From Lachnospiraceae bacterium MD329 (GTDB lineage Bacteria > Bacillota > Clostridia > UBA1381), in NCBI GenBank assembly GCA_010206265.1, contig VIQV01000001.1, positions 1-64,000 on the forward strand: 64,000 bases of DNA, in the 5' to 3' direction. Under the pieces are notes generated by a model that saw only the letters and a program-made list of their open reading frames with translations, was not told where the DNA came from and searched no databases. Both the position numbers and the translations under genes were made by a program. How positions within the stretch are numbered: the stretch's first letter is position 1; every line of letters begins with the position of its first letter. This document shows, piece by piece, positions 4,802 to 37,235 of this stretch.

Positions 4802-6427
4802 TTGCCGTACTTAAATGAGTTTATACAAGAACAATATTGTCTATATTTGCGTAAATCACGTTCTGACGCAGAAGCAGAGGCACGCGGAGAAGGTGAAACA
4901 CTTGCCCGACACGAAAAGGCTTTACTTGATTTAGCAAAGAAATTAAATCTAAATATAACCGAAATATATCGCGAGGTAGTATCTGGCGAAACAATAGCCG
5001 CTCGTCCTGTTATGCAGCACCTGTTACAGGAAGTTGAACAAGGAATATGGAAAGGCGTTCTTGTTATGGAAGTAGAGCGTTTAGCTCGTGGCGATACCAT
5101 AGACCAGGGTATTGTTGCCCAGACATTCAAATTCAGCGATACGAAGATTATAACACCAATAAAAACCTATAACCCTAACAATGAATTTGACGAAGAATAT
5201 TTTGAATTTGGTTTGTTTATGAGCCGCCGCGAGTACAAGACTATAAACCGACGTTTACAACGTGGACGGCTTGCCTCGGTGAAAGAGGGTAAGTATGTAA
5301 GTAATAAAGCCCCATATGGATATAAACGTATACCGCTCCAGAACGATAAAGGCTGGACACTTGAAATAGCTGAAGATGAGGCTGATGTTATACGGCTCAT
5401 ATTTGAATTATATACCACAGGAAAACAACAGGCTGACGGTACATATAAGCGTTTGGGTACTTCCTTAATAGCTCAGCACTTAAATGCGTTAAAAGTGCCT
5501 ACAAAAACCGGTACTGATTGGAGCGTAGCTACTATTAGGGACATACTTATAAATCCTGTATATATTGGTATTATTCGTTGGAATTGGCGACCTGCAAAAA
5601 AGAAAATGATTGACGGCCAATTAGTTACATCTCGCCCACGAGCTAAACAAGAAGATTGCATTTACTCTAAAGGGCTACATCAACCTATAATATCAGAGGA
5701 GACATTTAACCTTGCACAAGAATATATAAATAGCAATCCTCCCCGTCCTATTGGCGAAAAGAACACCGTTAAAAACCCATTAAGCGGTATAGTAATTTGT
5801 GGGAAATGCGGGCGGCATATGGTACGACGACCATACTATAAAAGAGAATACCCAGATACTTTAATGTGTGCAGCTACTTCCTGCAATAATGTCAGCTCAC
5901 AATTAAATATTGTCGAAAAACGAATTTTAGAAGCTCTTGAAGAATGGCTTGACGGTTATAAACTGCAATGGGATATAGAAAATACACATAATGAATACAT
6001 ATCACAAAGTGAAATCAAACGAAAAGCGCTCAAAAAAAATCAAACTGAACTTGACACCCTCTATAAACAATTAGACAGAACACACGACCTTCTCGAACAA
6101 AACATTTATGATACCGATATGTTTCTTGAACGCTCCCGAGCAGTATCACAACGCATAAACGAAACAAAAAGCATTATATCTACTTTAGAACAGGAACTAC
6201 AAACAGAGCTTGCTCGTGAGGAAAATATAGAATGTATTATTCCTAAAGTTGAAAAACTATTAGAAGTCTATCACGAGTTACCTACTCCTAAGGCAAAAAA
6301 CGATATGCTCAAAGAAGTTCTCGAAAAAATAGTATATACAAAAAACAATCGTAATAAGCGCAACGGTCCTGTTGATGAATTTGATATAACTATTTTCCCG
6401 AAAATACCAAAATATATAAAACCATAG
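4802..6427 (+). CDS. large serine recombinase (phage-type integrase)
   Basis: 541 residues from a TTG start after AAAGGAGGACC. The N-terminal resolvase domain carries YLRKS, with Ser19 as the probable catalytic serine, and the helpful arginines of VMEVERLARG. The recombinase domain follows (GKYVSNKAPYGYKR onwards), then a zinc-ribbon with CGKCGRH ... CAATSC (about 337-361), a long coiled coil (about 400-480) and the C-terminal tail. This is the full architecture of large serine integrases that join phage and host attachment sites. It is the last gene of the lysogeny cluster, so an attachment site is expected just right of its stop (6428-6727), though no core could be identified without the empty site. 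Confidence 0.9.
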   Translation: MPYLNEFIQEQYCLYLRKSRSDAEAEARGEGETLARHEKALLDLAKKLNLNITEIYREVVSGETIAARPVMQHLLQEVEQGIWKGVLVMEVERLARGDTIDQGIVAQTFKFSDTKIITPIKTYNPNNEFDEEYFEFGLFMSRREYKTINRRLQRGRLASVKEGKYVSNKAPYGYKRIPLQNDKGWTLEIAEDEADVIRLIFELYTTGKQQADGTYKRLGTSLIAQHLNALKVPTKTGTDWSVATIRDILINPVYIGIIRWNWRPAKKKMIDGQLVTSRPRAKQEDCIYSKGLHQPIISEETFNLAQEYINSNPPRPIGEKNTVKNPLSGIVICGKCGRHMVRRPYYKREYPDTLMCAATSCNNVSSQLNIVEKRILEALEEWLDGYKLQWDIENTHNEYISQSEIKRKALKKNQTELDTLYKQLDRTHDLLEQNIYDTDMFLERSRAVSQRINETKSIISTLEQELQTELAREENIECIIPKVEKLLEVYHELPTPKAKNDMLKEVLEKIVYTKNNRNKRNGPVDEFDITIFPKIPKYIKP

Positions 6428-6694
6428 TGCCGTTCAGAGTATGAACGGTACTTTTTTAGTTGATAACCTCTACGTCCCTATTCCTCGGTACCTACATCGT
6501 GTTCAAAATGCTCTTGATACTCAAAAAGTCTTGATTTTGCGGGAATTTCCACTATATAAGCGTACTCCAAAATACAACACAAATAAAAATTCAAGTACCA
6601 AAAATGCGAGGGACAAACCGCCAATAACGGTGCGTGTAGGTATATCAGCATAAGATGATTTTCTTAGAAACACTTTAACCGGTGTTTCTTTTTT
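6428..6694. other. junction between prophage remnant and rep module; two terminators, no gene
   Basis: About 300 bases (6428-6727) without a convincing gene. The first part is a terminator (GCCGTTCA-GAGTA-TGAACGG then T6, about 6429-6457) for the integrase. The last part is another (GAAACAC ... GTGTTTC then T6, about 6668-6692) just before repA. The prophage right attachment site probably lies here, but nothing in the window shows a matching repeat. Confidence 0.5.
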
Positions 6695-6727
6695 ATGCTT
6701 ATAAAGGCAAAGAAAGGAGCATTACTA

Positions 6728-7633
6728 ATGAGATTTGAATATATTTACGGCGAAAATGCCGACCTTTTTACTTTTTACAGAATACCAAAAGTGTTAATTA
6801 TAGCGCCCGAATTTAATTCTGTATCTACCGATGCAAAATTGCTTTACGGTTTATTACTTGACCGTATGGGACTATCCTTAAAAAATAATTGGTTAGATGA
6901 AGAAAACAAAGTCTATATTTATTTTACTATTAAGGATATATGCGAACAGTTAAACTGTGGCAGGGATAAGGCTATGAAACTACTTTCTGAACTTGATACC
7001 AAAACGGGAGTTGGTTTGATTGAACGCAAAAGGCAAGGTTTGGGAAAGCCAGCAAAAATTTATGTTATGAGCATTAAATGTTTTGAAGCCGAAAATATCG
7101 ACTTGCAGAGGTCGGGAAAACCGACTTTTAGAAATCTTAAAAATCGACCTCAAGAAGTCGGCAAAACAGACCCTAATGATAATAATATAAATAAGATTGA
7201 TTTGAATAAGATTGAAAATAATCATATCAAATCTATCGAAGCCACAGATGTCAGTACAGATGATTGGCAAGCGGAGCGTATTCGATGCGAGGATATGATT
7301 AAATCAAATATTGAATATGACATTATTTGTAATCAATATAATAAGTCTTGGCTTGATGAAATAGTGGCTATTATGGTTGATACGGTATGCAGCAAAACGC
7401 CGACAATACGAATTAACAAGCAGGACTATCCTATTGAGGCAGTAAAAAGTAAATTTTTGAAAATCAAAGCTGAACACATTGAATATATTGATATGGCTCT
7501 AAAACAAAATACTTCTAATGTCCGTAATATACGGGCATTTTTAATTACAACTATTTTTAGAGCCGATGAAACAATGGATAATTTTTTTAGAACAACAGTA
7601 AATCACGATTTATACGGAGGTAACAAACGATGA
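6728..7633 (+). CDS. repA: RepA N-terminal-domain replication initiator (copy 1)
   Basis: 301 residues from ATG 6728, chosen because AAAGGAGC precedes it and the family N-terminus MRFEYIYG starts here. The first ~110 residues, with FTFYRIPKVLI and KLLYGLLLDRMGLS, are the RepA_N winged-helix initiator domain. A low-complexity Asn/Asp/Lys linker and a ~90-residue C-terminal domain follow. RepA_N proteins start theta replication of Firmicutes plasmids and ICEs, usually at an origin inside their own gene. It is clearly homologous to the copy at 20405-21367 but diverged. The stop overlaps the start of parB (ATGA); the parA gene that sits between them in the other copy is missing here. Confidence 0.85.
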   Translation: MRFEYIYGENADLFTFYRIPKVLIIAPEFNSVSTDAKLLYGLLLDRMGLSLKNNWLDEENKVYIYFTIKDICEQLNCGRDKAMKLLSELDTKTGVGLIERKRQGLGKPAKIYVMSIKCFEAENIDLQRSGKPTFRNLKNRPQEVGKTDPNDNNINKIDLNKIENNHIKSIEATDVSTDDWQAERIRCEDMIKSNIEYDIICNQYNKSWLDEIVAIMVDTVCSKTPTIRINKQDYPIEAVKSKFLKIKAEHIEYIDMALKQNTSNVRNIRAFLITTIFRADETMDNFFRTTVNHDLYGGNKR

Positions 7634-8466
7634 TAAAAACAGTTAATATTACAGAATTGAAACCTTATGAGGCACAGCCTTATAAAGTGCTTATGGATGA
7701 AAGTATGAATGAACTTGCAGAGAGCATATCTGAAAACGGGCTTTTCTCTCCTGTAGTAGTCAGACCGCACAAGGATGGCGGATATGAAATACTTTCGGGA
7801 CACAGACGAGTGCAGGCGTGTAATCTTGCAGGAATAGAGGATATTCCCATCGAAATTCGAGAACTTAATGATGACAATGCCGCAATATTTCTTGTAGATA
7901 GTAATTTACACAGGGAAAATATATTGCCAAGCGAAAAAGCCTTTGCATACAAATTAAAATTAGAGGCTATGAAACGACAGGGAAAGAGAATGGATTTAAC
8001 TTCCCGACAATTTGTCGGGAAGTTAGAAAGTGCCAATATTATTGGAGTAGATGTAGCTGAAAGCGGAAGACAAATCCAAAGATATATCCGTTTAACCAAT
8101 TTAATTACTCCTATTCTTGATTTGGTAGACCAAAAGCAAATCGCACTGAATGCTGCAGTTGAATTATCGTATTTATCTGCAAAGCAACAAGCAGAAACGT
8201 TTAAAGCAATAAAATATGAACAAACAGCACCATCAATTTCACAAGCGAAAAGAATACGAAAATTTGCGGATAATAATAAACTTCTGCCGGAAGTAATTGA
8301 GGCTATTTTACAGGAGGAAAAACCTGAAAAATTGAAATTAAACTTTGATAATGGAAAAATACGGCGGTATTTTCCAAAAAACTATTCTCAAAGGCAAATG
8401 GAAGATACCATTATGCGCTTGCTTGAAAATTGGTATAAGCGCAGAAATAAAAATATGGAACGATAA
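7630..8466 (+). CDS. parB: ParB-like partition protein (copy 1)
   Basis: 278 residues. The N-terminal ParB/Srx nuclease-like domain shows LKPYEAQPYKVL, then the Arg box GGYEILSGHRRVQAC (about 53-67) and VDSNLHRENILPSEKAFAYK, which bind CTP and spread on DNA. A helix-turn-helix (about 130-160) would recognise parS. It is translationally coupled to repA by an ATGA overlap. No ParA ATPase is encoded beside it, so partition would need a ParA in trans, for instance from 21360-22178, or it acts only as a regulator. It ends in NMER. Confidence 0.85.
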   Translation: MIKTVNITELKPYEAQPYKVLMDESMNELAESISENGLFSPVVVRPHKDGGYEILSGHRRVQACNLAGIEDIPIEIRELNDDNAAIFLVDSNLHRENILPSEKAFAYKLKLEAMKRQGKRMDLTSRQFVGKLESANIIGVDVAESGRQIQRYIRLTNLITPILDLVDQKQIALNAAVELSYLSAKQQAETFKAIKYEQTAPSISQAKRIRKFADNNKLLPEVIEAILQEEKPEKLKLNFDNGKIRRYFPKNYSQRQMEDTIMRLLENWYKRRNKNMER

Positions 8467-8537: not shown

Positions 8538-8906
8538 ATGAAATCTAACTTTGAGCAGATAGGTGGAACTTACAGACAAGCAGGAGATTACTTAATCCCT
8601 GATTTAGAAGTTAAAAATGAGAGTATGGACATTGGAAAATATGGCAGAATGCGGGAGGCATTTCTAAAAAATCACAGAAATTCAATTTATACCGCTTTAC
8701 TTCTTACGGGAGAATTAGACAAGCATTTGTTAGAAATTGAAGAAACAGCAAGACAAACAGTTGACAAATATGTAAAGAAAATGGCTGCCGCAGAAAATGT
8801 TGATGAAAATATGAAAGCTGCATCACCAATGAAATGGATAGGTTTGATGAATAACTTTCGCCAAGCCGCAGAAGAAATCGTCAAAGAAAATCTGATATAT
8901 TGTTAA
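8538..8906 (+). CDS. tnpV: TnpV-family transposon protein (stand-alone copy)
   Basis: 122 residues with the TnpV family pattern: GDYLIPDL, then IGKYGRMREAFLKNH, a helical central part, and PMKWIGLMNNFRQAAEEIV near the end. The family is named from Tn4451-like transposons and is widespread in clostridial mobile elements; its biochemical role is unknown. GAGGAGG precedes the ATG. The gene lies between parB and the oriT-like sequence. About half of its residues match the protein encoded in an alternative frame inside the giant gene at 25726-26079, which makes this copy the key control for that overlap. Confidence 0.85.
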   Translation: MKSNFEQIGGTYRQAGDYLIPDLEVKNESMDIGKYGRMREAFLKNHRNSIYTALLLTGELDKHLLEIEETARQTVDKYVKKMAAAENVDENMKAASPMKWIGLMNNFRQAAEEIVKENLIYC

Positions 8907-8920: not shown

Positions 8921-8981
8921 GGCAAGCATAGCATTTGTCCGCACAAATACCGCTTGGCTGGGGACACCCCCTGCAACCCCG
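8921..8981 (+). other. oriT: oriT-like transfer origin (copy 1)
   Basis: Non-coding block just upstream of mobC with a GGCAAGCATAGCATTT box, an inverted CAAGC ... GCTTG pair enclosing a small stem, and a C-rich segment CCCCTGCAACCCC. The same elements in the same order occur at 35506-35567, upstream of the second mobC and the relaxase gene. Conservation in non-coding DNA at both mobC genes points to the relaxase nick region; the exact nick is not determined. Confidence 0.6.
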
Positions 8982-9013: not shown

Positions 9014-9334
9014 ATGAGAACAAGACAGCACAGAATACATATCCACTTAACAGATGATGAAAAAAAGAAATTAGATGAATTAAAAGAGATGACCGGATTG
9101 ACGGCATCTGCTATTGTCCGCACTTTTTTATCAAAACGAAAAAAGGACAGAATTTTACGACCAAAGCCGGATGAGAATTACGGAAAAATTACAAGCGAAC
9201 TTTTTGCCATTAGCAATAATTTAAATCAAATTAATCGTGTGGCTGAAAGAAATAATGATAATATTCAGTTGGTACAAGAAACAGAAAAAGAATTTAAAGA
9301 GATGGCAAAACTCATAAGACGATTATACTTGTAA
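9014..9334 (+). CDS. mobC: MobC-type relaxosome accessory protein (copy 1)
   Basis: 106 residues. A ribbon-helix-helix-like N-terminus (HRIHIHLTDDEKKKLDELKE) is followed by the MobC helix with NNLNQINRVAERN (about 70-85), the sequence class that helps MOBP relaxases melt oriT. AAGGAGATGAG precedes the ATG. In the second module the relaxase gene follows mobC directly. Here a terminator and then oppositely oriented defence genes follow, so the relaxase is absent and mobilisation would need one in trans. Confidence 0.8.
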   Translation: MRTRQHRIHIHLTDDEKKKLDELKEMTGLTASAIVRTFLSKRKKDRILRPKPDENYGKITSELFAISNNLNQINRVAERNNDNIQLVQETEKEFKEMAKLIRRLYL

Positions 9335-9352
9335 CTGCAAATCCAAAAAAGC

Positions 9353-9388
9353 GGCGAGGTGCTTTATGCCCCTCGCCTGATTTTTTCT
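9353..9388 (+). terminator. terminator after mobC copy 1
   Basis: GGCGAGG (9353-9359) pairs with CCTCGCC (9371-9377), followed by a T-run. It ends the rightward rep/mob unit; the reverse strand also serves as the far end of the leftward defence operon. Confidence 0.75.
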
Positions 9389-9424: not shown

Positions 9425-12400
9425 TTATTCCATCGGGCTTACTTTTGTTTCTATAAATTCGATTTCTTCTTTGCTTAGATCATATTTAGCATATAGTTGA
9501 TTATCAATATCAGGTATAGACTTTGACCAATCAATATCAGAATTGTCTGTAAAATCTTGAAGCGGAACAAATTCCCAAACTTTTTTTGTATTATCTTGAG
9601 TTACTTTTAAAATACCTAATAAAGCTCTTGCAAACTTAGATTTTACATACTTTAAAATTGCTTCTGCTTCTTTAACAGAATCCGTTGCTCCTACAGAAAT
9701 ATATGTTTCTGTATAGCCAATTAACGGCGTGCCAATTAACGGCGTGCCAATTAACGGCGTAGAAAGAACTTCCCCTATTGCTCCACTACCATTTGCCTTG
9801 GGAAACATTACTTTATATTTATATAGATTTTCTATCGGCGACAGATAGTCTTTTCTAAACCATCTATAAACTCTGATATTATTATAATTCCCATACATTT
9901 GAATATACTCCTTGCCGTCATTTGGCTTGGTTTCAGTAAACAGTTTTGGCATACGCTCAAATGCACTTGTTGAGATTCTGCGGTCAGGAGTTTTCTTCAT
10001 TTCTTCGGGATGTTCAATATAAACCTTGTCCGAAAATCTATACTGCCCTCTATTCAAAACGATTTTCGACAAACTTTCTTTACAAGTTTTCCATACTTTT
10101 ACTTTTACACTATTTAATTCTGGGAATGGACAATACATACCTATTTTACCAAAGTCAGTCTTAGCATCCCTATAAGTTACTGCCACACCGCCTTTTATAT
10201 CTACATTCGGAAAAACATCTGTACTGTTCGATGTGTAGTAAATAACTTTAAAATGTTCATCAGAAAGCATTTTTTCATTCCAACTCGTTGGAGTTGCTCC
10301 AGCATTAAAAAGAAAACGTGCAGGAGTAATAAAACTTACTTTATCAGATATATTAAACGCTGCATCCATAAAATGATAGTATATAGGCTTATCATTGACA
10401 GTACCTTCTGCACTTTCCTGATACGGAGGATTGCCAACTATTGCATCAAAATTCATTCTATCACCGCCTTTATTCCAAGTATTTGGATTTGTTAATTTTT
10501 TTGTAAACCTATCTTTATCTTGCATTCGTTCAAGCAATTTTGTCAAATAAATTGCATTAACAGTTTTACCTGAATATCCTGCAAGCGTTCTTGTTGTTAT
10601 AAGTCGAGCCATTTTAGTCTTACATAAAACAAAGATATTATTTTCAAGAGTTTCAAACCACAGTCTTTGAGCTTCGTCAAAGGATAAATCTTTTTCTTTA
10701 CCCGACACCTTTATCATATAAAGGCTATATGCCATGTATAGAGGATATAAACCGCTCTTTGAGTTCATTTCCAATATTTTTGCTTCTGTATTCAAAAGAA
10801 TATCCGCAGTAATATCACCTTGCTCAATTAAACGCGGTTCCTCAATTTCGTTTATATATGTATCATCAAAGAAATTATATCCACCTAAACTTTCACCAAG
10901 GTGCATATTTACAACTCTCCAAGGTGTCAAAACTGTTTCCTTGTCCGGATTTTTGAATTTGCCGATAATTTCAACAATTCTCTTTGCTCTTACAGTCGGT
11001 AACATTTCATCAGCTGCTTTTGCCATTTTTCTAATACGAAGTCCGGCGCCTACCAAAACATCTTCATCATAATATTTTAAGATTTGGATAAATAACTCTT
11101 TTCGTAAACCTTTTGGCATGAACTCTTGCCACGACTCATCATCGACTATTTTAACAAAGTCTTTTAGGTGGATTGTCTCTGTAATGTCAGCATCTGCACC
11201 ATAGAAAAGAAGTGGCAAACGGATTGATACTGCACGCAAAAGGTCTGTAATTTTCTTTTGTTGTTCACGAAGTTCCTTCATTCTTTTAAGAAGTTCTTCT
11301 TCCTCTTGGGTACGTTCGCGCTTCGGCTTTTTCTTTGCACGTTCTGCCTTTTTATATTCCTCTCCGGTCATACCTTTTTGGTTTACAACAACTTCGTTTT
11401 TCTTTTTACCTTTTTTCTGCGGAGTAACAACATTAACTAACTGTCTTATGATTTCAGCATCATTTTCATCCATGTTTATACCGACATCTTTTTTATAAAT
11501 AGTTTCATCTTCAAATCCGCTATTGATGGCGTGTTCAACGGATATGCGCTTAATTTGACGCATCATTTCGTCAACATCATATTTACGCATAACCGTACCC
11601 TCTACAGAAATGATGGGGCAGAAATTTAGAAATTCGCCCATTTTTACCTTTTCTGTATCATCAGAACCGCCGCCCTTGACGGATAAATTATGTACATTTG
11701 CAATAACCTTTAATGCTCTATCAGGTGCAAAATCAAACACATAACAATTTTCTTTCTGTTTACCATCTATGCAACCGGGTGATTGTACTCTAAAAATAGC
11801 TTGCATATATCCGCTTGCTGATGTAGATGCGGAACCTGAAAGCATCATAATACCTGTCCACTCTTTAACTGTTACGCCTGTGGTAAGTTTCCCACACGAT
11901 AGAGTTATGGTATATGGATGTTCTTTTATGTTATCTTTAACGAGCTTTAATGCTGTATCGTATTGTTGTTCTTCATCGCCATCTCCGGCAATGTTCGCCA
12001 CATAAAAGTTTTTAAAAACATCGTGTTTTTTCAATAAAACACTGAGCGCTTTTGCTTCTTTAACTCCGGGAACAAGCCAAAACGTGTGGCGGAACATATC
12101 TCTGTAATTATCTGTAGAGAAGGGATAATTTGTTTCATCACTTTTCTTTGTAATTAGGTCAAGGAAAGAAACAACATCTCTTTCGTGTACAAAATCGCCA
12201 ATATTTGCTCCTTCAGAAATTGGTCTAAAATCTTTTTCCAAATCTCCAGTCCATACTCTAAAAAATTCTCTAAAATTAAATGCAGAGTCCTCAGTAACAT
12301 ACCTATACGAGGCAGACAAATTCTCAGATAAATCAAAGGTTAAGATATTCATTGTAGGAAGCTCGGCATAAGGATTTTTCTCATTTGGATGTTTCTTATC

Positions 12401-13486
12401 CCAATTTGCTTTTGCATTCTGTTCGTCAACATAAGTCCAACTATAAATGTTGTCATCAAATCCCTCCATAATGTTATACGGAGTCCCTGAAAGAAGCAAA
12501 AGTTTTGTTCCGTCTTTTCTCAAATTTGCAATGACGGCATCTCCAAGCTCGGTCTGTGTTCCTTCGTGCGCTTCGTCTATGATAACCAAATCCCATTTTG
12601 TATCAAAGATAAAGTTATTCTTATTGAATTTACCACCTACGCGAGCAGAACCCCTTAAATCTTGCATAGAGGCAAAGTATGTAAATGGCACACCTGAATT
12701 AACTAATTCAGCTAACACTCTGTCATTTTCTTCATCAATAGCCGCATTGAATATATCTGTTGAGCCTGCTTTCTTTATTTCAAATCTATGCTTATTTCTG
12801 TCAAAAATCAAATCGTGGTCAGAGTCCCAGCCATCTTCAACCGCTGGTCTATGCGTAACAACAATAACCTTTTGATAATTCTGCCTACGGATAAGCTCAT
12901 AAGCGGTTACGGTTTTACCATAACGCATTTTGCAATTCCATAGCATTTCATCATAGGTTTCAAAAATTTTTATTGTCTTCTTTACATTTTCGTCTTGTTC
13001 TTTTCGTAACTCTATAGTTTTCTTTTTGTTATACGGTTCCATTTGAATACCCGGCAATATCAACGGCTTACCTTCTTTTACGGCTTCAATAGCTAATTTT
13101 ACAATATCCAAATCCACCTCAAACCATTCGCTTTCAAGACCGCTTTCCATAAACTTTACGCTACGATAATGTGAGTTGTAGAGCACCTTGTGAACATCTT
13201 TGTCTATAAATGAATTTGTTTGTACTTCTCCATCACTCATAACCAACCTTTGTATTGCCAACTCAGTATGGAGCAATTCATATTCGACAAGAGCCGTTTT
13301 TGTTTCTTGGTCAATGCGTTTACGCGCAGCAATATTTAATTCCTCACAGTTCGGAGGAAGTTGTTTCCAACTTGAATGTGAATCAAGAGAAGCCTTGCCG
13401 ATTTTAAGAATACCTTTATGTCTTTCATCGTGAATTGCAAATACATATATTAAATTATAACTCGCAGTAGGTTTATAATTATCCAT
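9425..13486 (-). CDS. GIY-YIG/T5orf172 – DEAH helicase – N6-methylase fusion (restriction system)
   Basis: 1,353 residues. The N-terminus has a T5orf172-like GIY-YIG pattern (LIYVF ... LKIGKA, about 12-33) that could be a nuclease. Next comes a superfamily 2 helicase: KMRYGKTVTA as Walker A (about 186-195), VIIDEAHEGTQ as the DEAH box (about 303) and a C-terminal helicase half (around 520-600). A Lys-rich coiled segment follows (about 690-745). The C-terminal third holds the adenine methylase motif NPPYQ (about 1017) in an Eco57I-like target region, but I find no clear SAM-binding motif I. The upstream gene, overlapping by 8 bases, supplies a methylase-like partner. The pair resembles restriction-modification fusions; substrate and activity are not shown. 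A 15-base triple repeat lies near its 3' end. Confidence 0.75.
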   Translation of the reverse strand: MDNYKPTASYNLIYVFAIHDERHKGILKIGKASLDSHSSWKQLPPNCEELNIAARKRIDQETKTALVEYELLHTELAIQRLVMSDGEVQTNSFIDKDVHKVLYNSHYRSVKFMESGLESEWFEVDLDIVKLAIEAVKEGKPLILPGIQMEPYNKKKTIELRKEQDENVKKTIKIFETYDEMLWNCKMRYGKTVTAYELIRRQNYQKVIVVTHRPAVEDGWDSDHDLIFDRNKHRFEIKKAGSTDIFNAAIDEENDRVLAELVNSGVPFTYFASMQDLRGSARVGGKFNKNNFIFDTKWDLVIIDEAHEGTQTELGDAVIANLRKDGTKLLLLSGTPYNIMEGFDDNIYSWTYVDEQNAKANWDKKHPNEKNPYAELPTMNILTFDLSENLSASYRYVTEDSAFNFREFFRVWTGDLEKDFRPISEGANIGDFVHERDVVSFLDLITKKSDETNYPFSTDNYRDMFRHTFWLVPGVKEAKALSVLLKKHDVFKNFYVANIAGDGDEEQQYDTALKLVKDNIKEHPYTITLSCGKLTTGVTVKEWTGIMMLSGSASTSASGYMQAIFRVQSPGCIDGKQKENCYVFDFAPDRALKVIANVHNLSVKGGGSDDTEKVKMGEFLNFCPIISVEGTVMRKYDVDEMMRQIKRISVEHAINSGFEDETIYKKDVGINMDENDAEIIRQLVNVVTPQKKGKKKNEVVVNQKGMTGEEYKKAERAKKKPKRERTQEEEELLKRMKELREQQKKITDLLRAVSIRLPLLFYGADADITETIHLKDFVKIVDDESWQEFMPKGLRKELFIQILKYYDEDVLVGAGLRIRKMAKAADEMLPTVRAKRIVEIIGKFKNPDKETVLTPWRVVNMHLGESLGGYNFFDDTYINEIEEPRLIEQGDITADILLNTEAKILEMNSKSGLYPLYMAYSLYMIKVSGKEKDLSFDEAQRLWFETLENNIFVLCKTKMARLITTRTLAGYSGKTVNAIYLTKLLERMQDKDRFTKKLTNPNTWNKGGDRMNFDAIVGNPPYQESAEGTVNDKPIYYHFMDAAFNISDKVSFITPARFLFNAGATPTSWNEKMLSDEHFKVIYYTSNSTDVFPNVDIKGGVAVTYRDAKTDFGKIGMYCPFPELNSVKVKVWKTCKESLSKIVLNRGQYRFSDKVYIEHPEEMKKTPDRRISTSAFERMPKLFTETKPNDGKEYIQMYGNYNNIRVYRWFRKDYLSPIENLYKYKVMFPKANGSGAIGEVLSTPLIGTPLIGTPLIGYTETYISVGATDSVKEAEAILKYVKSKFARALLGILKVTQDNTKKVWEFVPLQDFTDNSDIDWSKSIPDIDNQLYAKYDLSKEEIEFIETKVSPME
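9716..9760. repeat. three perfect 15-bp tandem repeats inside the helicase-methylase gene
   Basis: The unit GCCAATTAACGGCGT occurs three times head to tail (9716-9730, 9731-9745, 9746-9760). On the coding (minus) strand it gives TPLIG repeated in frame. Copy-number change would lengthen or shorten the protein by five residues without a frameshift. Confidence 0.9.
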
Positions 13487-14465
13487 AAAGATTTCCTCCT
13501 TTTATCAAATCGACAAAACATATCACTTCGTTTGTTTCCCAATCTTTAATGGTTGCTTTTATACCATTGTGGTCATGCGGTCTGTTATATTTACAACCGG
13601 GACACGGTTCGGACTCTCTGTCATCCGAATCGAAAAATGCCATTTGCTCTGAAATTTCATCGTGGCAAGAGTCGGGGATTACATACTTCATTCCATCCAT
13701 CTGCCATATATTCCAAGCGATAATGTCGGAACATTTCAAAATAAATGCTTTATCGGGCATCTTTTTGAACTTCTCGAAAAAACTCTCAATTACTGCATAT
13801 AAAAGGTTTTCTCTTGCAAGAAGAATATTATCCCCTTGCCATTCAAACCCATAAATGCTTTGTAACGCTTTCTCCGCCCATAAATTCCAATCTTTTTGCG
13901 TTTCTGTATTCTCACTTACAATGCGGAGTTTTCTGTCGAGTAATCCGATTCTTCGCTTGACGGTTATATACTTGCCTGATACCATATCATATCTGCTTGT
14001 TAGATAGGGAGCTTCTCCGCAAGACATTTCCATTCGATTTGCGTTTACATAATCTTGCCAAGTCTTACTCTCAGGAAATCTGATTTTGTAGTAGTTAGTT
14101 TCCCAAGAACAATCCTTTTCGGTATTAAATCTCTTTGCTTCCTTGCCAAACCAAGCATTATCAACCAAATTATTTTGAGCATTGCAAACCCAAGATGGAG
14201 TAAAAACCTCTGCTTTTTCTCGCGAACGCAACACTTGTATACTTCTTTCTTTATCTGCTCTCGGTTTTATAATTCTTTCGTTATTTCCTGTTATTGCAGT
14301 AGCCAAAATAGGCGAATGAAATTTATATTCCTCGCCTAAACTCTCATAGTTGTTTGTTGCCCATATTATATTTTTGTTAGTTGTTTTATCACTTAAAAGG
14401 ATATTAAGAACCTCTGCGTCTAATGAGCCTTCAAGTATATCAAGATTTTTTTGCTTATTAGTCAT
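13479..14465 (-). CDS. restriction-modification 'subunit M'-like methylase partner
   Basis: 328 residues. It contains EVFTPSWVCN (about 90-100), the motif that precedes the SAM site in type I and type IIG adenine methylases. MSCGEAPYLTSRYD (about 147-160) then resembles a modified motif I, and YGFEWQGDNILLAREN follows (about 210-225). It has no NPPY catalytic tetrad of its own; that motif is in the downstream helicase fusion, whose start overlaps this stop by 8 bases. The two products may together form one methyltransferase. Near the C-terminus CPGCKYNRPHDHNG suggests a metal site. The family is seen annotated as 'restriction endonuclease subunit M'; function here is inferred. Confidence 0.65.
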   Translation of the reverse strand: MTNKQKNLDILEGSLDAEVLNILLSDKTTNKNIIWATNNYESLGEEYKFHSPILATAITGNNERIIKPRADKERSIQVLRSREKAEVFTPSWVCNAQNNLVDNAWFGKEAKRFNTEKDCSWETNYYKIRFPESKTWQDYVNANRMEMSCGEAPYLTSRYDMVSGKYITVKRRIGLLDRKLRIVSENTETQKDWNLWAEKALQSIYGFEWQGDNILLARENLLYAVIESFFEKFKKMPDKAFILKCSDIIAWNIWQMDGMKYVIPDSCHDEISEQMAFFDSDDRESEPCPGCKYNRPHDHNGIKATIKDWETNEVICFVDLIKGGNLYG

Positions 14466-14504
14466 TTCATAACCTCATATAGAAATTTAACAGCGCATGT
14501 GTGT

Positions 14505-14621
14505 CTAAAGTTGTGCCAATTGATTTATAATTCGCTGTTCAGACCAGTTAATTGTGTTGCTTATACGGTCTTTCAGTTCCGCAAACTGTAAATCCAACAG
14601 AAACGTTTTTAAATCTGTTAC
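14505..14621 (-). pseudogene. remnant of a second HipA-like gene (C-terminal 38 codons)
   Basis: Read leftward, this segment encodes VTDLKTFLLDLQFAELKDRI and continues SNTINWSE before a stop. It aligns with the C-terminus of the intact HipA-like protein at 16682-17773 (LTAVKTFLSDLQFEELKERI, then ANVISWTE). No start or kinase domain is attached; the rest of 14466-14749 holds no convincing gene, only a short ATG frame of 23 codons with a ribosome-binding site near 14714. The copies are diverged, so this is an old remnant of a related gene, not a recent duplication. Confidence 0.7.
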
Positions 14622-14749
14622 CTGTTGTTCTATCTTTTAGCAAAATAACGAGAAATACATTATCCAATTTATATATAGCTTTTTTATATCAATTAAAACT
14701 TTGTCCATTTGTTTCTCCTAATCGAATTTCTAAATATATTTCATTATAA

Positions 14750-16597
14750 TTAACTGCCAAATATAAATCTAACAATTCTATCGCTTGCTTTCTCAGTAGC
14801 AACTAAAATATCACCTTTCTTCCAGTGCGGCTTATTTTTACTTTGATATTCAGACACTAATGCACGAGCAATTGGATATTTACTATCAATATAACCTGTT
14901 TTGTTTTCAAGTTTTGTTGAAACTTTAGTTCTAAACCATTCATTCCCTAACGCTCTATTAATCTTTTCTTCAAGAATTATCTTATTGCCCAACTTGTTTA
15001 CAAATGCATAGAACTCATCTTCACTATCAATTTCCGCATCTTCTCTAATTGCCTGAAGATTATATCCACTATACGGCATTATGTGTTCTATGTCATATCT
15101 TGTTCCAAGAGAAAACATTGTATCATTTTCTTGCGCAAAAAGATACTCATTTAGATATACAAGCACATTTCCATTATAGTCATATAATGTTGATGTGATA
15201 GTTTCCTTATCCCAATTAGATAAAATGTGTTTATTGAAATCCTTTATAATTTCATCAGCAGAAATATTTTTATCAATAAGTTTTGCTTCTTCACTAAACA
15301 AGAATGTTTTGAAATATTTACTTGAATAGCCAACATCAACAACCTCCAGCAAAGCAAATAAGCGTAATAAACAATCAAGAATTGGCTCAACAATAGTTTC
15401 AGTAATCTCGTCTTCAGTAAATCTATAAAAATAACTTGCTAAAAATAGTTTTGTATTCTCATTAAACTTTAACAAAACTTTCATTTGAGGATATTCTGCA
15501 ATCTTTTTCCAAATTCTGGATAATCTGATCATATCAGTACACATAGCAATGGGTTCAGTGATAGGAGTTTTATTGATTTCAGTAAAATATCTTCTTAAAC
15601 CCGGTGTAGTAACATTAATTGCACCTGTTTCGCTAATTGTTTCCTTATTGACGGTACGTATGTAATACATATACTGCATCAAAATTGAATTAATATCTGC
15701 AATACGAATAATTTCTAATTCATTTATAATATCATTTAACTCTTTCCATAAATCTGCAAACTCTTTTTGTTGTCCCTTTTTTTCTGCCTCAGCATATAAT
15801 TTTGCAGAAATAATATCGGAATCATAAAGAGGCAAACCATCAGAGTTCAGAGAGTTGAACATTGTAATTGCCTGTTCAACTTGCCAACTCTTAATTTCAA
15901 TTACTTCACAATTGTCTGTAATAGCCTTCGCTATACTATTCAACTGTGAATCTGACAGTTCACTTATTTTGTTATAAAAGAATTTGAAGTTTCTAAAAAA
16001 GTTAGTGTATCTATTGTCTTTTTGTTTAAATTTGATTTTAATTACCATTGCTTCGGCTGATATGTAATCAACTGCCTGAAGAATTGTTTTCAAATCAGTT
16101 TTATACTGTTCATTTATCGAAAAATTTTCAAATATATTTCCACGACAAAAAATTTCAAAATCTTTCTCGGCATCAGGCTTGTCGGAAATATCTTCTGTTT
16201 CAGCCTTATAAAGAATACCCATAATTCTTCTTCTGCGTTCTTGTAATCCACGACAAAGGCTGACCGAATCCTCATCACTTGCAGTTTTCTCAATCGCAAT
16301 GTTAATTCTAACCAACAACGCTTTTAATAATAAAAAAAATGTAGTTGTCCTTTGTTGACCATCAATAAGTCCATATTTTGTGTCATCGTCTTGACAATTA
16401 ATTATAATAGTTCCAAAGAAATATCTATCCTTGCTTTCACTTTCAACAAAATCATTTATATCTTGCCATAGTTTATCACAATTATCTATCCCCCAAGAAT
16501 ATGCGCGCTGATATTCCGGAATAGTAAATATGGTATTTTCTTCTAACTTTAGATAATCTCCAATTCTTTTTAGTGTAGGTTCAATATTTTTAGCCAT
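14750..16597 (-). CDS. DUF262/DUF1524 (GmrSD-like) restriction protein
   Basis: 615 residues. The N-terminal DUF262 domain has FTIPEYQRAYSW (about 24-35) and the nucleotide-linked YGLIDGQQRTT motif (about 75-85). The C-terminal DUF1524 domain shows YDIEHIMPYS (about 500) and NKLGNKIILEEKIN (about 530), the HNH-type (His-Me finger) nuclease core with its histidine and asparagines. This is the GmrSD fusion arrangement: known members are type IV restriction enzymes cutting modified phage DNA with NTP hydrolysis, and DUF262 proteins occur in several other defence systems. It is a single gene between two HipA-like sequences, on the same strand as the restriction pair. All key motifs look intact. 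Confidence 0.8.
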   Translation of the reverse strand: MAKNIEPTLKRIGDYLKLEENTIFTIPEYQRAYSWGIDNCDKLWQDINDFVESESKDRYFFGTIIINCQDDDTKYGLIDGQQRTTTFFLLLKALLVRINIAIEKTASDEDSVSLCRGLQERRRRIMGILYKAETEDISDKPDAEKDFEIFCRGNIFENFSINEQYKTDLKTILQAVDYISAEAMVIKIKFKQKDNRYTNFFRNFKFFYNKISELSDSQLNSIAKAITDNCEVIEIKSWQVEQAITMFNSLNSDGLPLYDSDIISAKLYAEAEKKGQQKEFADLWKELNDIINELEIIRIADINSILMQYMYYIRTVNKETISETGAINVTTPGLRRYFTEINKTPITEPIAMCTDMIRLSRIWKKIAEYPQMKVLLKFNENTKLFLASYFYRFTEDEITETIVEPILDCLLRLFALLEVVDVGYSSKYFKTFLFSEEAKLIDKNISADEIIKDFNKHILSNWDKETITSTLYDYNGNVLVYLNEYLFAQENDTMFSLGTRYDIEHIMPYSGYNLQAIREDAEIDSEDEFYAFVNKLGNKIILEEKINRALGNEWFRTKVSTKLENKTGYIDSKYPIARALVSEYQSKNKPHWKKGDILVATEKASDRIVRFIFGS

Positions 16598-16681
16598 TTC
16601 TTTTTCTCCTTAAATTTAGTGAATTTTTTGCTTGCTTTTAATCATTATAATAATATCCATCCATATGTTGCTCATTTCATT

Positions 16682-17773
16682 TTAGTAGCCCTTATTCATC
16701 TCTGTCCAGCTAATCACATTAGCAATCCGCTCTTTTAATTCTTCAAACTGTAAATCCGACAGAAACGTTTTTACAGCTGTTAAATCTATTGTTTTAAGCT
16801 TGTCCGCAATGTCCTTATGCTTCTTTATGAAACGCTCGCAAAGCTCGTCAAGCGGAAGCGATGCGGAATTACCCATTGTCGTTCTCGTAAGACCTATAAA
16901 ACCCTCTTGAAATGCTACGTTATGGTCATAGCAGGGTGAAACAGACTTAAATTCAAATGTGCGGCTGTCATAAATAAGTCCGTAATTATCATCGTGTAAA
17001 TCAGGATTTGCAATAATATAGTTAAATATAAACAGCCTTTGCAAGCCTCTGATTAAATCTTTATTTGCGCTGTCCTTTGCAAGAATATTATAAATCTCGT
17101 CTGCTGTGTTAAAATAATTTTTCAGCTCGCTTGCGTGTACCAAAGAATTATTATAATCGGTAAATATTTTAATTTTAACATAATCTCCGTCTAATACGAC
17201 ATCAGATACATTAACACCGATTTGCCTGCCTATAAGATATGCCGGATATTCCAAAACAGCGTCTTTTTTGAGTTTATAAATATAACCGCCGAATACCGCT
17301 TTTGGAAAATAGCCCTTTGTAGTGAAAAGCGAAGTAAAGCCTTTTAATAATTCCTCGCTGTCATTAACCTCGCCCGTAAGAGCTACATTATTGAGCGCAA
17401 TATTATCATCGCGCATTTTTTTTAGGTCGTTCCAATCGCAGATGGTATCTCTTGTTTTAATCCAAAAATTATCAGTAAACGAAACGCCCGAACTATCCTT
17501 TATGATTTTATCTCTGTCCCTGCCGACTCTGCGGGCGATATAAACAACATTCATATAAGTACGACTTATGTTATTTACTCTGTCCGATAACCACTCGAAT
17601 ACATCTACGGCGGAAAGCTTTTCTCTGCCTCTCAAGCCGAAAGGAAGAAGATTTTTATTGTAAATTCTAATTTCATCAGTTTCACGATTAAATTCAAGCA
17701 CCGGACTGTCCTCGTGCATAATAGTATATCTTTTAACCTTTTCGGCAGCGTTTTCCGAAACAGCTCCAATCAC
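16682..17773 (-). CDS. HipA-like kinase family protein
   Basis: 363 residues; the start at 17773 follows AAGGAGGTATTT. The C-terminal half carries IANPDLHDDNYGLIYDS (about 252-270) and VSPCYDHN (about 279-287). These match the catalytic loop (N-x-D-x-H-x-x-N type) and the metal-binding loop of HipA-like protein kinases. The N-terminal ~120 residues look like the HipA N1/coupling region, but no HipB antitoxin gene lies next to it. HipA toxins phosphorylate aminoacyl-tRNA synthetases; stand-alone relatives are of unknown target. It heads the leftward defence island, and a related full-length gene lies at 47535-48710. Confidence 0.6.
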   Translation of the reverse strand: MIGAVSENAAEKVKRYTIMHEDSPVLEFNRETDEIRIYNKNLLPFGLRGREKLSAVDVFEWLSDRVNNISRTYMNVVYIARRVGRDRDKIIKDSSGVSFTDNFWIKTRDTICDWNDLKKMRDDNIALNNVALTGEVNDSEELLKGFTSLFTTKGYFPKAVFGGYIYKLKKDAVLEYPAYLIGRQIGVNVSDVVLDGDYVKIKIFTDYNNSLVHASELKNYFNTADEIYNILAKDSANKDLIRGLQRLFIFNYIIANPDLHDDNYGLIYDSRTFEFKSVSPCYDHNVAFQEGFIGLTRTTMGNSASLPLDELCERFIKKHKDIADKLKTIDLTAVKTFLSDLQFEELKERIANVISWTEMNKGY

Positions 17774-18325
17774 AATAAATACCTCCTTTTTTCTCAGATA
17801 CGTTTACACTTTCGGCTATATATCCTCCAGATTAAATCCAATAATACATATTTTAACACAAAATTACGGAAAAATCAATTAAGGTTTTTAGAATGTAAAA
17901 TATTAGGCGATATGTATAAGCGTTTTGCAATTTATATTACATTTCCTTTACGATTTTTAAATACATACTCAACAAAGCGCCCTAAAATTCACATTTAATT
18001 AGAGGCTCTTTTACAGAAAATAAAAATTTTTTAGAAAAAAGGTTGTCAAAACCCATTAAAAATCACATTAAGTGGGAGGGCTTTTTACAGACAAAGAAAG
18101 CACGCAAGATAACGGCGGCGCAGTATAACAGTCAAACGGTAACACTTAAAGATACTTCTGCTTAGTCATAGTCCGAGCGTTAAAAGCGTCACAGGCATTG
18201 AGGGCAGCCCGGTCTGAAGACGGGGAGGTGAAATTCCTATGGGCAGTTTCGAGGCTTCTGCCAACCGTTTGTTTTCATAGAGTACAAGCAGCGGCACATA
18301 AACTTACAAGGAGGAGGTGTTGCCT
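17774..18325. other. 550-base non-coding boundary between defence island and serine recombinase
   Basis: No gene is supported. The left part is the promoter side of the HipA-like gene (AT-rich, no clear hexamers). The right part (about 18110-18320) has a markedly different, GC-richer composition and several stems: CCCGGTCTGAAGACGGGG (18209-18226) folds on itself, and GGCAG (18242-18246) pairs with CTGCC (18258-18262), with a GGAGGAGG ribosome-binding site at the end. This could be a structured leader RNA or recombinase attachment DNA; nothing in the window decides. Confidence 0.35.
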
Positions 18326-18496
18326 ATGGCAAAAGAAAAAAAGGCTGACTGTATTTTGCAAGTTAAAGCCGACAGCAAAGAATTTCTTTTTGGTTTTCAA
18401 AAGGCAATACTTCTATCCTTGCACGAAAATGGAAAGCTGACATTTGAGCAATATAATTATGCAATAGAATTGCTTGAAAAGAAATTTAAAAACTGA
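18326..18496 (+). CDS. 56-residue SHOCT-like small protein
   Basis: MAKEKKADCILQVKADSKEF, then a helix and LTFEQYNYAIELLEKKFKN at the end, a short C-terminal two-helix motif resembling SHOCT-type tails. An unusually strong GGAGGAGGTG precedes the ATG. It lies 56 bases before the recombinase start and is probably co-transcribed. Small proteins in this position beside serine recombinases may modulate excision; this is positional inference only. Confidence 0.55.
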   Translation: MAKEKKADCILQVKADSKEFLFGFQKAILLSLHENGKLTFEQYNYAIELLEKKFKN

Positions 18497-18552
18497 TTTT
18501 TTTGCGATATATTTTTTTGAATGGTAAAATACAGATGAAAGGAGATGGTTTT

Positions 18553-20295
18553 ATGATTTATGTAGCGGCATATTGCAGAGTTTCAACCGACTCTGATGAC
18601 CAAGCCAATTCTTTTGAAAGTCAGCAAAGGTTTTTTAAAGATTACATTGACAGAAATCCCGATTGGGAGCTTGTGGAAATTTATGCGGATAAGGGACTGA
18701 CGGGAACGAGTACAAAAAAAAGAAAAGATTTTAACAGAATGATTGCAGACGCCAAACTTGGCAAATTTACTTTTATTATTACAAAAGAAGTGAGCAGATT
18801 TGCAAGAAACACCGTTGACACCTTGCAGTACACAAGAGAGTTAAAACAAAGAAATATCGGCGTTTATTTTATGGTTGATAATATAAACACCTTAGACCCC
18901 GACGCAGAGCTTCGTTTGACGATTATGGCTTCTATTGCGCAGGAAGAAAGCAGAAAGACCTCCGAGCGTGTAAAATGGGGACAAAAGCGGAGAATGGAAG
19001 CAGGCGTTGTTTTTGGTCGTGATATGCTCGGCTACGATGTTCACGACGGCAAATTATTTGTAAACGAAGAAGGTGCAGAAATTGTGCGGCTTATTTTCCA
19101 TAAATTCGCAGAAGAGAAAAAAGGCACATATACGATTGCAAGAGAACTCAGAGAGGCGGGATATAAGACTATAACAGGAAACGCTGTATGGACTAATACG
19201 GTCATTTTAAAGGCTATACGCAACGAAAAATACTGCGGTGATTTAATTCAAAAAAAGACCATAACGCCTGATTATCTTACGCACTCAAAAAAGTATAATA
19301 AGGGCGAGGAAGAAATGGTTATTTTGCGTAATCATCACGAGCCTATTATAAGCCGTGAACTATGGAATAAGGCGCAGGACGAGCTTGACCGTCGAAGTCC
19401 GTCGCAAGAGATAAAAAACAAGCACTCGAACAGATATGCTTTATCGGGTAAAATATTCTGCGGCTCTTGCGGCAACCATTTTGTATCACGCACAAAAAAG
19501 CGTAAAGACGGAAGCAGGTATAAAGCGTGGCGATGTTATGAAGCTGCGCAGCACGGACTGCCAAAAGAGGATGCGGCAGGGAATCACATCGGCTGTGATA
19601 TAAATTGTCAAATTCGTGACGAGGACTTTATGCTGGCTATTCAGGAGGCTGTTAAAGCACTTGAATTTGATAAAAAGAAACTTATCAAGGATTTAACTGA
19701 GATTTTGGAAACCGCGCTTAAAATAGGCGAAGAAAAGCCTGTAGACGAAGCTGAAATCAAAAAAAGGCTTGAAATTATAAAAAGCAAAGATGAACGGCTT
19801 TTAGATTTATATTTAAGCGAGGATTTGACAAAAGAAGATTATCGCAGGAAAAAAGCAGATTATGAAGCTGAAATCACAAAACTGCAAGCCGAACTGGCTA
19901 ATATTAATAAGCAAAAGGCATTTACGCCCAATACAAAGAATATTGCCGCTGAAATTAAGGCGCATATTACAGATGTGGTACTTGGAAATAAAAAAGACGA
20001 GACCTTTTACAAAAATATTGTAGATAAAATCATAGTACATAGCAGAAATGAAATTGATATTTTTTTCGACCTGCTCCCGTATGAGCTAAAAATCATATTA
20101 AGGTCTTGCGGGAGCATTCCGAACACGACCTCCCTACCTCCGATTAAAAATGACGACGCTGAAAAAAATAGCATACGATTAGCAGAAATCTCAGTGTTTG
20201 AGCGGTGTTGCAAGTATGGTACTTCCTTACAGCAATCAAACACTCGGACAAACGAACAGTCCGAAAAGACGGTTGGAATAAATTTATATGCTTAA
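18553..20295 (+). CDS. large serine recombinase (second, TnpX/integrase type)
   Basis: 580 residues from ATG 18553, chosen because AAAGGAGATGG precedes it. The resolvase domain begins MIYVAAYCRVST with Ser11 as the nucleophile. ITKEVSRFARN (about 80) and IMASIAQEESRKTSERVKWG complete the active site and long helix. The recombinase domain, a zinc ribbon (FCGSCGNHF ... CYEAAQHG ... C, about 300-350) and a coiled coil follow. It differs clearly from the phage integrase at 4802-6427. Either the ICE to its right or the defence/mobilisable region to its left may use it for integration and excision; the location at their junction fits both. Confidence 0.88.
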   Translation: MIYVAAYCRVSTDSDDQANSFESQQRFFKDYIDRNPDWELVEIYADKGLTGTSTKKRKDFNRMIADAKLGKFTFIITKEVSRFARNTVDTLQYTRELKQRNIGVYFMVDNINTLDPDAELRLTIMASIAQEESRKTSERVKWGQKRRMEAGVVFGRDMLGYDVHDGKLFVNEEGAEIVRLIFHKFAEEKKGTYTIARELREAGYKTITGNAVWTNTVILKAIRNEKYCGDLIQKKTITPDYLTHSKKYNKGEEEMVILRNHHEPIISRELWNKAQDELDRRSPSQEIKNKHSNRYALSGKIFCGSCGNHFVSRTKKRKDGSRYKAWRCYEAAQHGLPKEDAAGNHIGCDINCQIRDEDFMLAIQEAVKALEFDKKKLIKDLTEILETALKIGEEKPVDEAEIKKRLEIIKSKDERLLDLYLSEDLTKEDYRRKKADYEAEITKLQAELANINKQKAFTPNTKNIAAEIKAHITDVVLGNKKDETFYKNIVDKIIVHSRNEIDIFFDLLPYELKIILRSCGSIPNTTSLPPIKNDDAEKNSIRLAEISVFERCCKYGTSLQQSNTRTNEQSEKTVGINLYA

Positions 20296-35505: not shown

Positions 35506-35567
35506 GGCAAGCATAGCATTTTGCTATCCAAAATACAGCTTGTTAGTGGCTTCGCCCCTAAACCCCA
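35506..35567 (+). other. oriT: oriT-like transfer origin (ICE copy)
   Basis: GGCAAGCATAGCATTT, the inverted CAAGC ... GCTTG pair with an internal TTTG/CAAA stem, and a GCCCCTAAACCCC segment, in the same order as at 8921-8981. A second hairpin, CAAAGGCTTTGCCTTTG (about 35483-35499), precedes it. It lies just before mobC and the relaxase gene, the usual oriT position. Confidence 0.65.
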
Positions 35568-35586: not shown

Positions 35587-35889
35587 TTGAGAAAACGCAG
35601 TCAAGCGGTATTGATACGCTTAACCGATAATGAGAAAAATCACTTACAGCGTCAGGCGGCTAACGCAGGCTTGAAGATGGAGCCGTTTATCCGAAAACTG
35701 ATTATGGGTGTGGATATAACTCCGCGTCCGCCGGATAATATTGTAAATCTCATACGGGAAGTAAACTATATCGGCAACAATATAAATCAGATTGCCAAAA
35801 AGGTAAATTCGGAAAACAGCGTCAATCAATCACAGCTTGAAGAAATAATGCGTCTGCTCGGTGAGATATACCGAGAGGTTAAAAACTGA
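35587..35889 (+). CDS. mobC: MobC-type relaxosome accessory protein (ICE copy)
   Basis: 100 residues from a TTG start at 35587 with TTGGAGGCGG upstream. RSQAVLIRLTDNEKNHLQRQ forms the ribbon-helix-helix-like part and NYIGNNINQIAKKVN (about 60-75) the MobC motif. The stop codon shares its last base with the relaxase ATG. With the relaxase it would bind the adjacent oriT and open the strands for nicking. Homologous to but diverged from the MobC at 9014-9334. Confidence 0.85.
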   Translation: MRKRSQAVLIRLTDNEKNHLQRQAANAGLKMEPFIRKLIMGVDITPRPPDNIVNLIREVNYIGNNINQIAKKVNSENSVNQSQLEEIMRLLGEIYREVKN

Positions 35890-37235
35890 TGGCAATTACA
35901 AAAGTATATCCTGTACGGAATAAGCTGCACCGCGCAGTAAGCTATGCGGCTAATGAGGAAAAGACCTCGCTTGAAAAGCTAATCGGATATGCCGTCAATC
36001 CCGACAAGACTGAACAGAGTATATTTGAAAGCGTTGTAAACTGTACTACCGTTGAAACCGCGTTTGATGAAATGACATCTACAAAGCGGAAATACGGTAA
36101 AGAGGATAAAGTCCTTGCTTATCACTATATACAAGCCTTTAAGCCGGGCGAAGTAACGCCCGAACTTGCGCACAGTATCGGAGTACAATTCGCAAAGGAA
36201 TGTTTTGGGGATAGATTCGAGGTTGTTATAGGAACGCACCTTGACCGTAAACATTTACACAATCATATAGTTGTAAATTCCGTATCGTTTTTAGATGGCG
36301 GCAAATTCCGCTCAACCCCGCAAAGCCACTATAACGTAATCCGTAAAATTTCAGACAGGCTATGCAGAGAAAACGAATTATCGGTCATAGACAATCCGAA
36401 ACACAAGGGTATGCACTATGCGGAATGGAAAGCTTTGAACGAGGGCAAGCCGACAATTCGAGGTCAGGTACGAGAGGAACTTGACGAGATTATAAAGTCC
36501 TCATACACAATGCAAATATTTTGGAAAGAACTGAAACAGCGCGGCTATGCAGTACACCGAAAGGGCGAAAATATCAAGTACACGTCTATCATTCCCCCGT
36601 TTGGTAAAAGACCGATAAGGCTTGACAAGCTCGGCGCAGAATATACGGAAACGGCTATACAGGAGCGTATCACGGCAGAGCGTAACGGTATCCGTACTAT
36701 GCCGCCATCACAGCGCAGAAAAATATATAAATATAACGGAAATCTTAAAAAAGTACCTCGAAAAAAACTCAAAGGCTTTCAAGCCTTGTACTTCCATTAC
36801 CTGTACTTATTTAAGAAAATCCATAAGAAGCAGACACCGCAGAGGGTGTCATTTTTTATGCGTGATGAAATTGTCAGGTTTGAACGCTATCAGAAGCAGT
36901 TTAAGTTTTTATACAATCACGGAATAGAAACCGCAGAGCAGTTACGGGAATATCAGACTGAGCAGGAACAGAAGATTGAGGATTTAACGGAGAACAGAAC
37001 AATTCTATATTATGAAAGGAAGTACACAGATGAGCCGGAAAAAATCTCACAGCAGATTTCAAAAATCAATAATGCGCTCAAAGTCTGTCGTGCAGATGTC
37101 AGAATGTGCAAAGCGATATTTACAGACGCAGACCGCATCAAAGAAAAGTATCATAAGGCACAGGAATTACAGACACAAGCAATAGAAAATCAAAAGGAGG
37201 TTACAGACAATGAACACAAGCGGAGAAGTCGCTGA
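35889..37235 (+). CDS. MOBP-type relaxase
   Basis: 448 residues. HLDRKHLHNHIVVNS (about 118-132) is the three-histidine metal motif III of HUH relaxases. AITKVYPVRNKLHRAVSYAAN at the N-terminus (AITKVYPVRNK, then HRAVSYAAN) carries the candidate catalytic tyrosine. The C-terminal half is a basic coiled coil (about 310-445) likely to contact DNA and the coupling protein. It nicks oriT, stays attached to the 5' end and pilots the strand through the type IV channel. This is the only relaxase in the window and the natural candidate to act on both oriT copies. Confidence 0.88.
   Translation: MAITKVYPVRNKLHRAVSYAANEEKTSLEKLIGYAVNPDKTEQSIFESVVNCTTVETAFDEMTSTKRKYGKEDKVLAYHYIQAFKPGEVTPELAHSIGVQFAKECFGDRFEVVIGTHLDRKHLHNHIVVNSVSFLDGGKFRSTPQSHYNVIRKISDRLCRENELSVIDNPKHKGMHYAEWKALNEGKPTIRGQVREELDEIIKSSYTMQIFWKELKQRGYAVHRKGENIKYTSIIPPFGKRPIRLDKLGAEYTETAIQERITAERNGIRTMPPSQRRKIYKYNGNLKKVPRKKLKGFQALYFHYLYLFKKIHKKQTPQRVSFFMRDEIVRFERYQKQFKFLYNHGIETAEQLREYQTEQEQKIEDLTENRTILYYERKYTDEPEKISQQISKINNALKVCRADVRMCKAIFTDADRIKEKYHKAQELQTQAIENQKEVTDNEHKRRSR

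Follow-up and report, generated by a model that had tools for sequence, protein, structure and literature searches.

A 13.7-kb mobile element of a spore-forming bacterium, Lachnospiraceae bacterium MD329 (GCA_010206265.1), lacks a relaxase of its own and carries as cargo a restriction-modification (R-M) system, a second restriction enzyme, and a HipA-type kinase. It lies in the window that we analyzed, positions 1-64,000 of the forward strand of contig VIQV01000001.1. The best explanation, to which we assign a probability of roughly 0.8, is that this is an integrative mobilizable element (IME) without a relaxase whose cargo consists of three independently acquired defence modules. The cargo genes look like separately acquired defence genes gathered in one place, not one new multi-gene system. 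Their combination is a local assembly and not a recurrent system, and defence cargo on a relaxase-less mobilizable element is ordinary in kind. The least ordinary component is the architecture of the R-M unit, which comprises a small methylase-like protein (M) and a larger fusion protein (HelMT). The first-pass annotation had proposed an anti-phage island on a mobilizable module; the defence genes are indeed cargo of a mobilizable element without a relaxase, but the evidence does not support one combined system. The element is a clean case of defence genes accumulating on a transfer-deficient element.

The element, which we call B, extends on the + strand from its repA end at 6488 to its recombinase end at 20219, and its gene content and layout were established directly. 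It begins with a RepA_N/DUF6017 replication initiator (6695-7633; Pfam RepA_N 2.6e-29, DUF6017 9.7e-34), a ParB-like protein (7630-8466; ParB_N 5.9e-21), and TnpV (8538-8906; 1.5e-38). These genes, as well as the oriT-like DNA and mobC described below, had all been placed at 6.7-9.3 kb by the first-pass annotation, and all are present on the + strand. That annotation did not include the large serine recombinase of the element (18502-20295, + strand; Pfam Resolvase/Recombinase/Zn_ribbon), several homologues of which lie beside halves of the coat gene cotJC. Also absent from it were the element ends and a HipA-type 3′ remnant at 14539-14620.

The left end of B is a GTACC core at 6488 that abuts the end of recombinase element A. 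Here the element end, ATTCCTCgGTACC, is the same as the recombinase end found at cotJC in a related genome (G015), ATTCCTCcGTACC; this match indicates that B starts at 6488. The right end is less certain and is given approximately: homology of the recombinase gene (rec2) to its relatives stops near 20112, a GTAC core lies at 20219, and the recombinase ORF reads across this core into the next element. Serine recombinases at 4802-6492, at 18502-20295, and outside the window at contig positions 75558-77350 all point in the same direction, and the third abuts the cotJC 5′ half at 77159. Related recombinases abut cotJC at GTACCTATATC in four other loci (L202, L207, L218, and L220), with one base changed in a fifth (L221); cotJC was named from its own sequence and a CotJB-like neighbour. 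From these junctions, three elements are stacked at one target with B lying between two others, and the element ends assign the recombinase at 18502 to B and separate B from the element that carries the MobP relaxase. Because GTACC(T)ATATC within cotJC marks the recombinase end in several related genomes, this gene is an apparent shared integration hotspot. Tandem accretion of integrative elements has been published (PMC5704250). On another contig of MD329, a cotJC 3′ half lies in two pieces separated by about 10.7 kb (C22, 765-947 and 11678-11902), which suggests a further insertion.

The mobilization region contains an oriT-like site, GCAAGCATAGCATTTG, with the inverted repeat ACAAAT/GCTTG (8922-8965, + strand), a motif shared with related elements, and a MobC/NikA-type relaxosome accessory protein (9014-9334, + strand; Pfam NikA-like 3e-8, RHH_1) that had no match in viral contigs or plasmids. 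In three related elements (L190, L191, and L193), a relaxase follows the MobC-type gene directly, with adjoining or overlapping ORFs; in L193, a gene that reads as TnpV-like also precedes the MobC-type gene. These relaxases are related to the MobA/VirD2-like relaxase in the window. When the three were searched against the window, the only match at a meaningful E-value was 35889-37235 (49-61% identical), and neither a relaxase nor a remnant of one was found between mobC and the recombinase. As a relaxase follows mobC in the relatives and the cargo of B directly shows none, the earlier premise of a missing relaxase was right.

It had also been proposed that B could use the relaxase at 35889-37235. 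The oriT motif occurs with at most two changes upstream of mobC-type genes in four related loci (L179/L190, L181/L191, L182, and L186) and at 35507 in the window, upstream of the neighbouring MobP element's own MobC gene. At three mismatches, the motif count in the window was reached in 8 of 100 shuffles, which is not rare by chance, so the oriT argument rests on exact and one-mismatch matches and on their position. The proposal is plausible because both elements have the same oriT family (GCAAGCATAGCATTTG with the inverted repeat), but the nic-side flanks differ between the two sites (gctgggga vs. ttagtggc) and identity between the two MobC proteins is only 26%, so use of this relaxase is no more than possible. 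For transfer, B would depend on a relaxase provided in trans, for example the MobP relaxase of the adjoining element.

Where the relaxase would be expected, the first-pass annotation saw a terminator and an 8.3-kb leftward block, and both were confirmed. A hairpin lies at 9345-9386 between the convergent mobC and HelMT genes, with a fold of −18.5 kcal/mol (z −3.7) and a core stem at 9353-9377; none of 200 shuffles folded as well. T runs on both sides make it suited to both directions. It was not listed by the automated terminator scan and was evident on direct folding. Beyond it, 9425-17773 is filled by four intact leftward ORFs encoding HelMT, M, a GmrSD-like protein, and a HipA-like protein. 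The M and HelMT ORFs share 8 bp; a gap of 284 bp separates the end of the GmrSD gene from M downstream of it, and one of 84 bp separates the end of hipA from the GmrSD gene. The three cargo modules read leftward and may form one transcript.

The first module would be a complete R-M system. HelMT (9425-13486, − strand; 1353 aa) was assigned by Pfam and PADLOC as a T5orf172 nuclease, putatively of the GIY-YIG superfamily, joined to an SF2 helicase and an N6-adenine methylase with NPPY and a target-recognition domain (TRD). It matches Eco57I (E 2e-24) and ResIII (1.7e-9); T5orf172 scores 20.2 bits against a cut-off of 20, with 24.7 bits in a relative (L059), and its motif LIYxFxIxD...LKIG...RI...TE...EW is conserved. 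Across 60 aligned HelMT proteins, the nuclease motif, GKT, DEAH, SGTP, QxIFRxQ, TPWRV, SKSGLY, and NPPYQ are kept. TPWRV and SKSGLY correspond to the methylase motif X and I-like pair, and residues ~1100-1300 are variable in the way a TRD is. M (13479-14465, − strand; 328 aa; PADLOC MTase_II 6e-121) is a methylase-like partner subunit in which the alignment shows motif X (FTPSWVCNAQNN) and an I-like CGEAPYL motif, without NPPY. What had earlier been described as a helicase-methylase pair is in fact a single fusion protein accompanied by the small partner M, itself methylase-like. HelMT had no PDB sequence match at E up to 1, the PDB search with M gave no real match, and Foldseek returned nothing usable for the AlphaFold model of M (pLDDT 69). 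The model of the T5orf172 domain (pLDDT 85.8) aligned with the GIY-YIG domain of At-HIGLE at Z 4.0 (rmsd 3.5 over 89 residues), a score that unrelated chains equalled. It had no Foldseek match at E 0.001, and its matches to toxin pores (rmsd >13) were discarded as noise.

The second module is a GmrSD-like single-chain type IV restriction enzyme (14750-16597, − strand; 615 aa). It has both the GmrS (DUF262; GmrSD_N 2.9e-32) and GmrD (DUF1524; GmrSD_C 2.4e-10) parts, DGQQR, and the HNH-type motif EHIMP...LGNK...IN, and it had no match in viral contigs. Its close relatives (52-64% identical) are solo (G006 and G306) or follow a type I hsdM-S-R locus (G233). The solo relative in G006 (64%; L057 9447-11297) contains an in-frame stop and is probably a decaying gene.

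The third module is a HipA-like kinase (16682-17773, − strand; 363 aa) with conserved NPDLHDDN and CYDHN motifs. Its HipA_C match (8e-7) reaches 29.4 bits, just below the cut-off of 30.5, and a 76% identical orthologue (L187) passes with 33.8. HipBA toxin-antitoxin was considered as an assignment and rejected: no recognizable HTH ORF for an antitoxin lies at 17774-18501 or at the opposite flank of hipA. Close relatives (70-76%) are solo (G033 and G051) or directly follow Fic (G015, G406, and G439), and in G406 and G439 the Fic-HipA pair is preceded by an HTH gene and a second HipA gene. Such runs of HTH, HipA-like, Fic, and a second HipA-like gene occupy L187 9853-12914 and L188 6769-9435, with Fic and HipA only at L029 298-2007; we know of no named system with this composition. 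A second, distantly related HipA-like gene lies at 47535-48710 in the window, inside the neighbouring conjugative-type element. The kinase had no match in viral contigs and no real match in a PDB sequence search, and a plasmid search returned only four distant Campylobacter/Helicobacter matches. HipA-family kinases defend against phage elsewhere (HipAD/DS-6; PMC13092281), so by analogy a defence role for this kinase, acting alone, is possible.

The 284-bp gap upstream of M holds a remnant of a second HipA-like 3′ end (14539-14620, − strand), in which 82 nt are 76% identical to 16701-16782, compared with at most 52% in 2000 shuffles of the gap; the amino acid identity is 64% over 28 residues. 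As the remnant matches the hipA 3′ end, the GmrSD gene has a diverged HipA 3′ end on either side, an arrangement that fits insertion or recombination at the end of hipA. GC content also differs between the GmrSD (30.5%), HipA (37.4%), and HelMT (35.5%) genes. Together, the remnant and the GC differences fit a stepwise, patchwork assembly. In an alternative explanation that we consider unlikely, the element is dead and the block a relic that persists by chance or solely because of its methylation function. The missing relaxase, the HipA remnant, and the burial of the element between two others agree with decay, and a relic has been argued for DnmA-YeeB-YeeC of B. subtilis (PMC9973331). Against it, the four ORFs are full length and their active-site motifs are conserved, as observed directly.

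Independent acquisition of the modules is supported by their distribution in other genomes. The first-pass annotation had suggested a search for the gene set elsewhere, with the genes occurring only separately as the outcome that would speak against their forming one system. A scan with M over 84,980 species genomes gave 80 loci. HelMT lies directly after M in 79 of these, across many phyla (78 by BLAST distance and L116 by ORF position); the remaining locus, L092, stops at a contig edge. GmrSD was found in 0 of the 80 loci by tblastn, motif, or profile, and HipA-family ORFs in two, as weak, distant relatives 4-9 kb away. As a control, the GmrSD and HipA profiles recovered both window genes. 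The flanks extend at least 9 kb downstream in 56 loci. Upstream of M they reach at least 5 kb in only 45, so a HipA or GmrSD gene past a contig end would be missed. Three genomes of the same order or class (G023, G040, and G041) have M-HelMT without GmrSD and HipA. In 95 same-order and up to 391 class genomes searched with HipA and GmrSD, the stretches read around close HipA relatives contained no M or GmrSD. M-HelMT is the only recurrent pair among the four genes, and GmrSD and HipA occur separately.

These results weigh against the idea that the four genes act as one system, in which the R-M and GmrSD proteins would attack phage DNA and HipA, released on their failure or on disturbance of the operon, would arrest the cell as an abortive back-up. 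The genes share one strand, an 84-bp gap, overlapping spacing, and a likely single transcript, and HipA-family kinases take part in phage defence elsewhere (PMC13092281), but no second case appeared in any of the genomes searched with M, HipA, or GmrSD, and the run is broken by the gap with the HipA remnant, so we regard it as very improbable. Literature searches found no description of the M/HelMT/GmrSD/HipA set. The remnant shows that a HipA-like gene end adjoined GmrSD or M on at least one further occasion, and a rare true association would fit as well. Gene neighbourhood by itself would have pointed to a false system, as the co-occurrence test shows.

With three independent modules as the preferred reading, a division of labour can be proposed from the predicted protein activities. 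Together, M and the NPPY-TRD portion of HelMT would methylate an adenine within a site that the variable TRD specifies. When the DNA lacks this modification, the HelMT helicase would move along or remodel it and the T5orf172 domain would cut. The GmrSD-like enzyme would cut modified-base phage DNA out of reach of the first module, and the orphan HipA-family kinase, without its usual neighbours, would perhaps arrest growth.

The arrangement of the R-M genes varies among relatives. In G040, a single protein combines M with the NPPY-TRD part (C), and the nuclease-helicase protein (R) is separate; in G041, the M, C, and R pieces are three separate genes. Here, R and C are fused and M is separate. 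Relatives with a 649-aa M-NPPY-TRD fusion or three separate R-M genes occupy L059 10114-15377 and L060 1-3688. From the motif distribution and these rearrangements, we infer that the methylase consists of M plus the NPPY-TRD part, and that its recognition unit also serves the nuclease-helicase. M and R may therefore compete for or share the target-recognition half, switching between methylation and cutting. We tentatively suggest, while considering it rather doubtful, that M-HelMT is an undescribed ATP-dependent R-M type whose methyltransferase is split between M, as the SAM-binding half, and the C-terminal NPPY-TRD part of a T5orf172-helicase protein. If the split is real, this would be a widespread R-M family with an unusual division of labour; one scan found relatives of M encoded in 157 genome stretches. 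Tenacibaculum phage PTm1 (L194 7989-8996) encodes M next to an HTH gene and close to a further DNA methyltransferase, with no HelMT among the adjacent genes; this suggests that M can be useful by itself, perhaps for self-modification.

Several known systems resemble parts of the element. IMEs with only an oriT and an accessory factor have been published (PMC5704250), and B, with its own integrase, oriT, and MobC but no relaxase, in tandem with a conjugative-type element, resembles these non-canonical IMEs; it differs in its RepA_N/TnpV backbone and cotJC target, and its mobilization is predicted only. Like HipBA, HipBST, and HipAD (DS-6), the kinase has a HipA_C domain, NPDxHxxN catalytic loop, and metal site, but no antitoxin gene adjoins it and its closest relatives are solo or follow Fic. 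The GmrSD-like protein shares with GmrSD, Eco94GmrSD, and BrxU (PMC4619093, PMC4437046, PMC12409352) the DUF262 and DUF1524 single chain, DGQQR, HNH-type motifs, and R-M neighbours, and GmrSD adjoining R-M genes has been published (PMC4619093); it is distant from solved members, with SspE as the best PDB match (E 3e-4, N-terminal domain only). HelMT carries nuclease, helicase, linker, methylase, and target recognition on one chain (ResIII, Eco57I, NPPY, and the variable residues 1100-1300), as type ISP enzymes such as LlaGI and LlaBIII do (PMC4666363). Type ISP enzymes have an N-terminal Mrr-type (PD-(D/E)XK) nuclease and no separate M subunit, whereas HelMT has T5orf172 and M beside it, so assignment to type ISP was rejected. 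DnmA-YeeB-YeeC of Bacillus subtilis and Vibrio crassostreae (PMC9973331), likened to M-HelMT by description and not by sequence, also combines an N6-adenine methylase, an SF2 helicase, and T5orf172 in a mobile defence-type region. There, these are three separate proteins with an MmeI-like methylase; in M-HelMT, nuclease, helicase, and methylase are fused in HelMT, and M adds a second methylase-like subunit.
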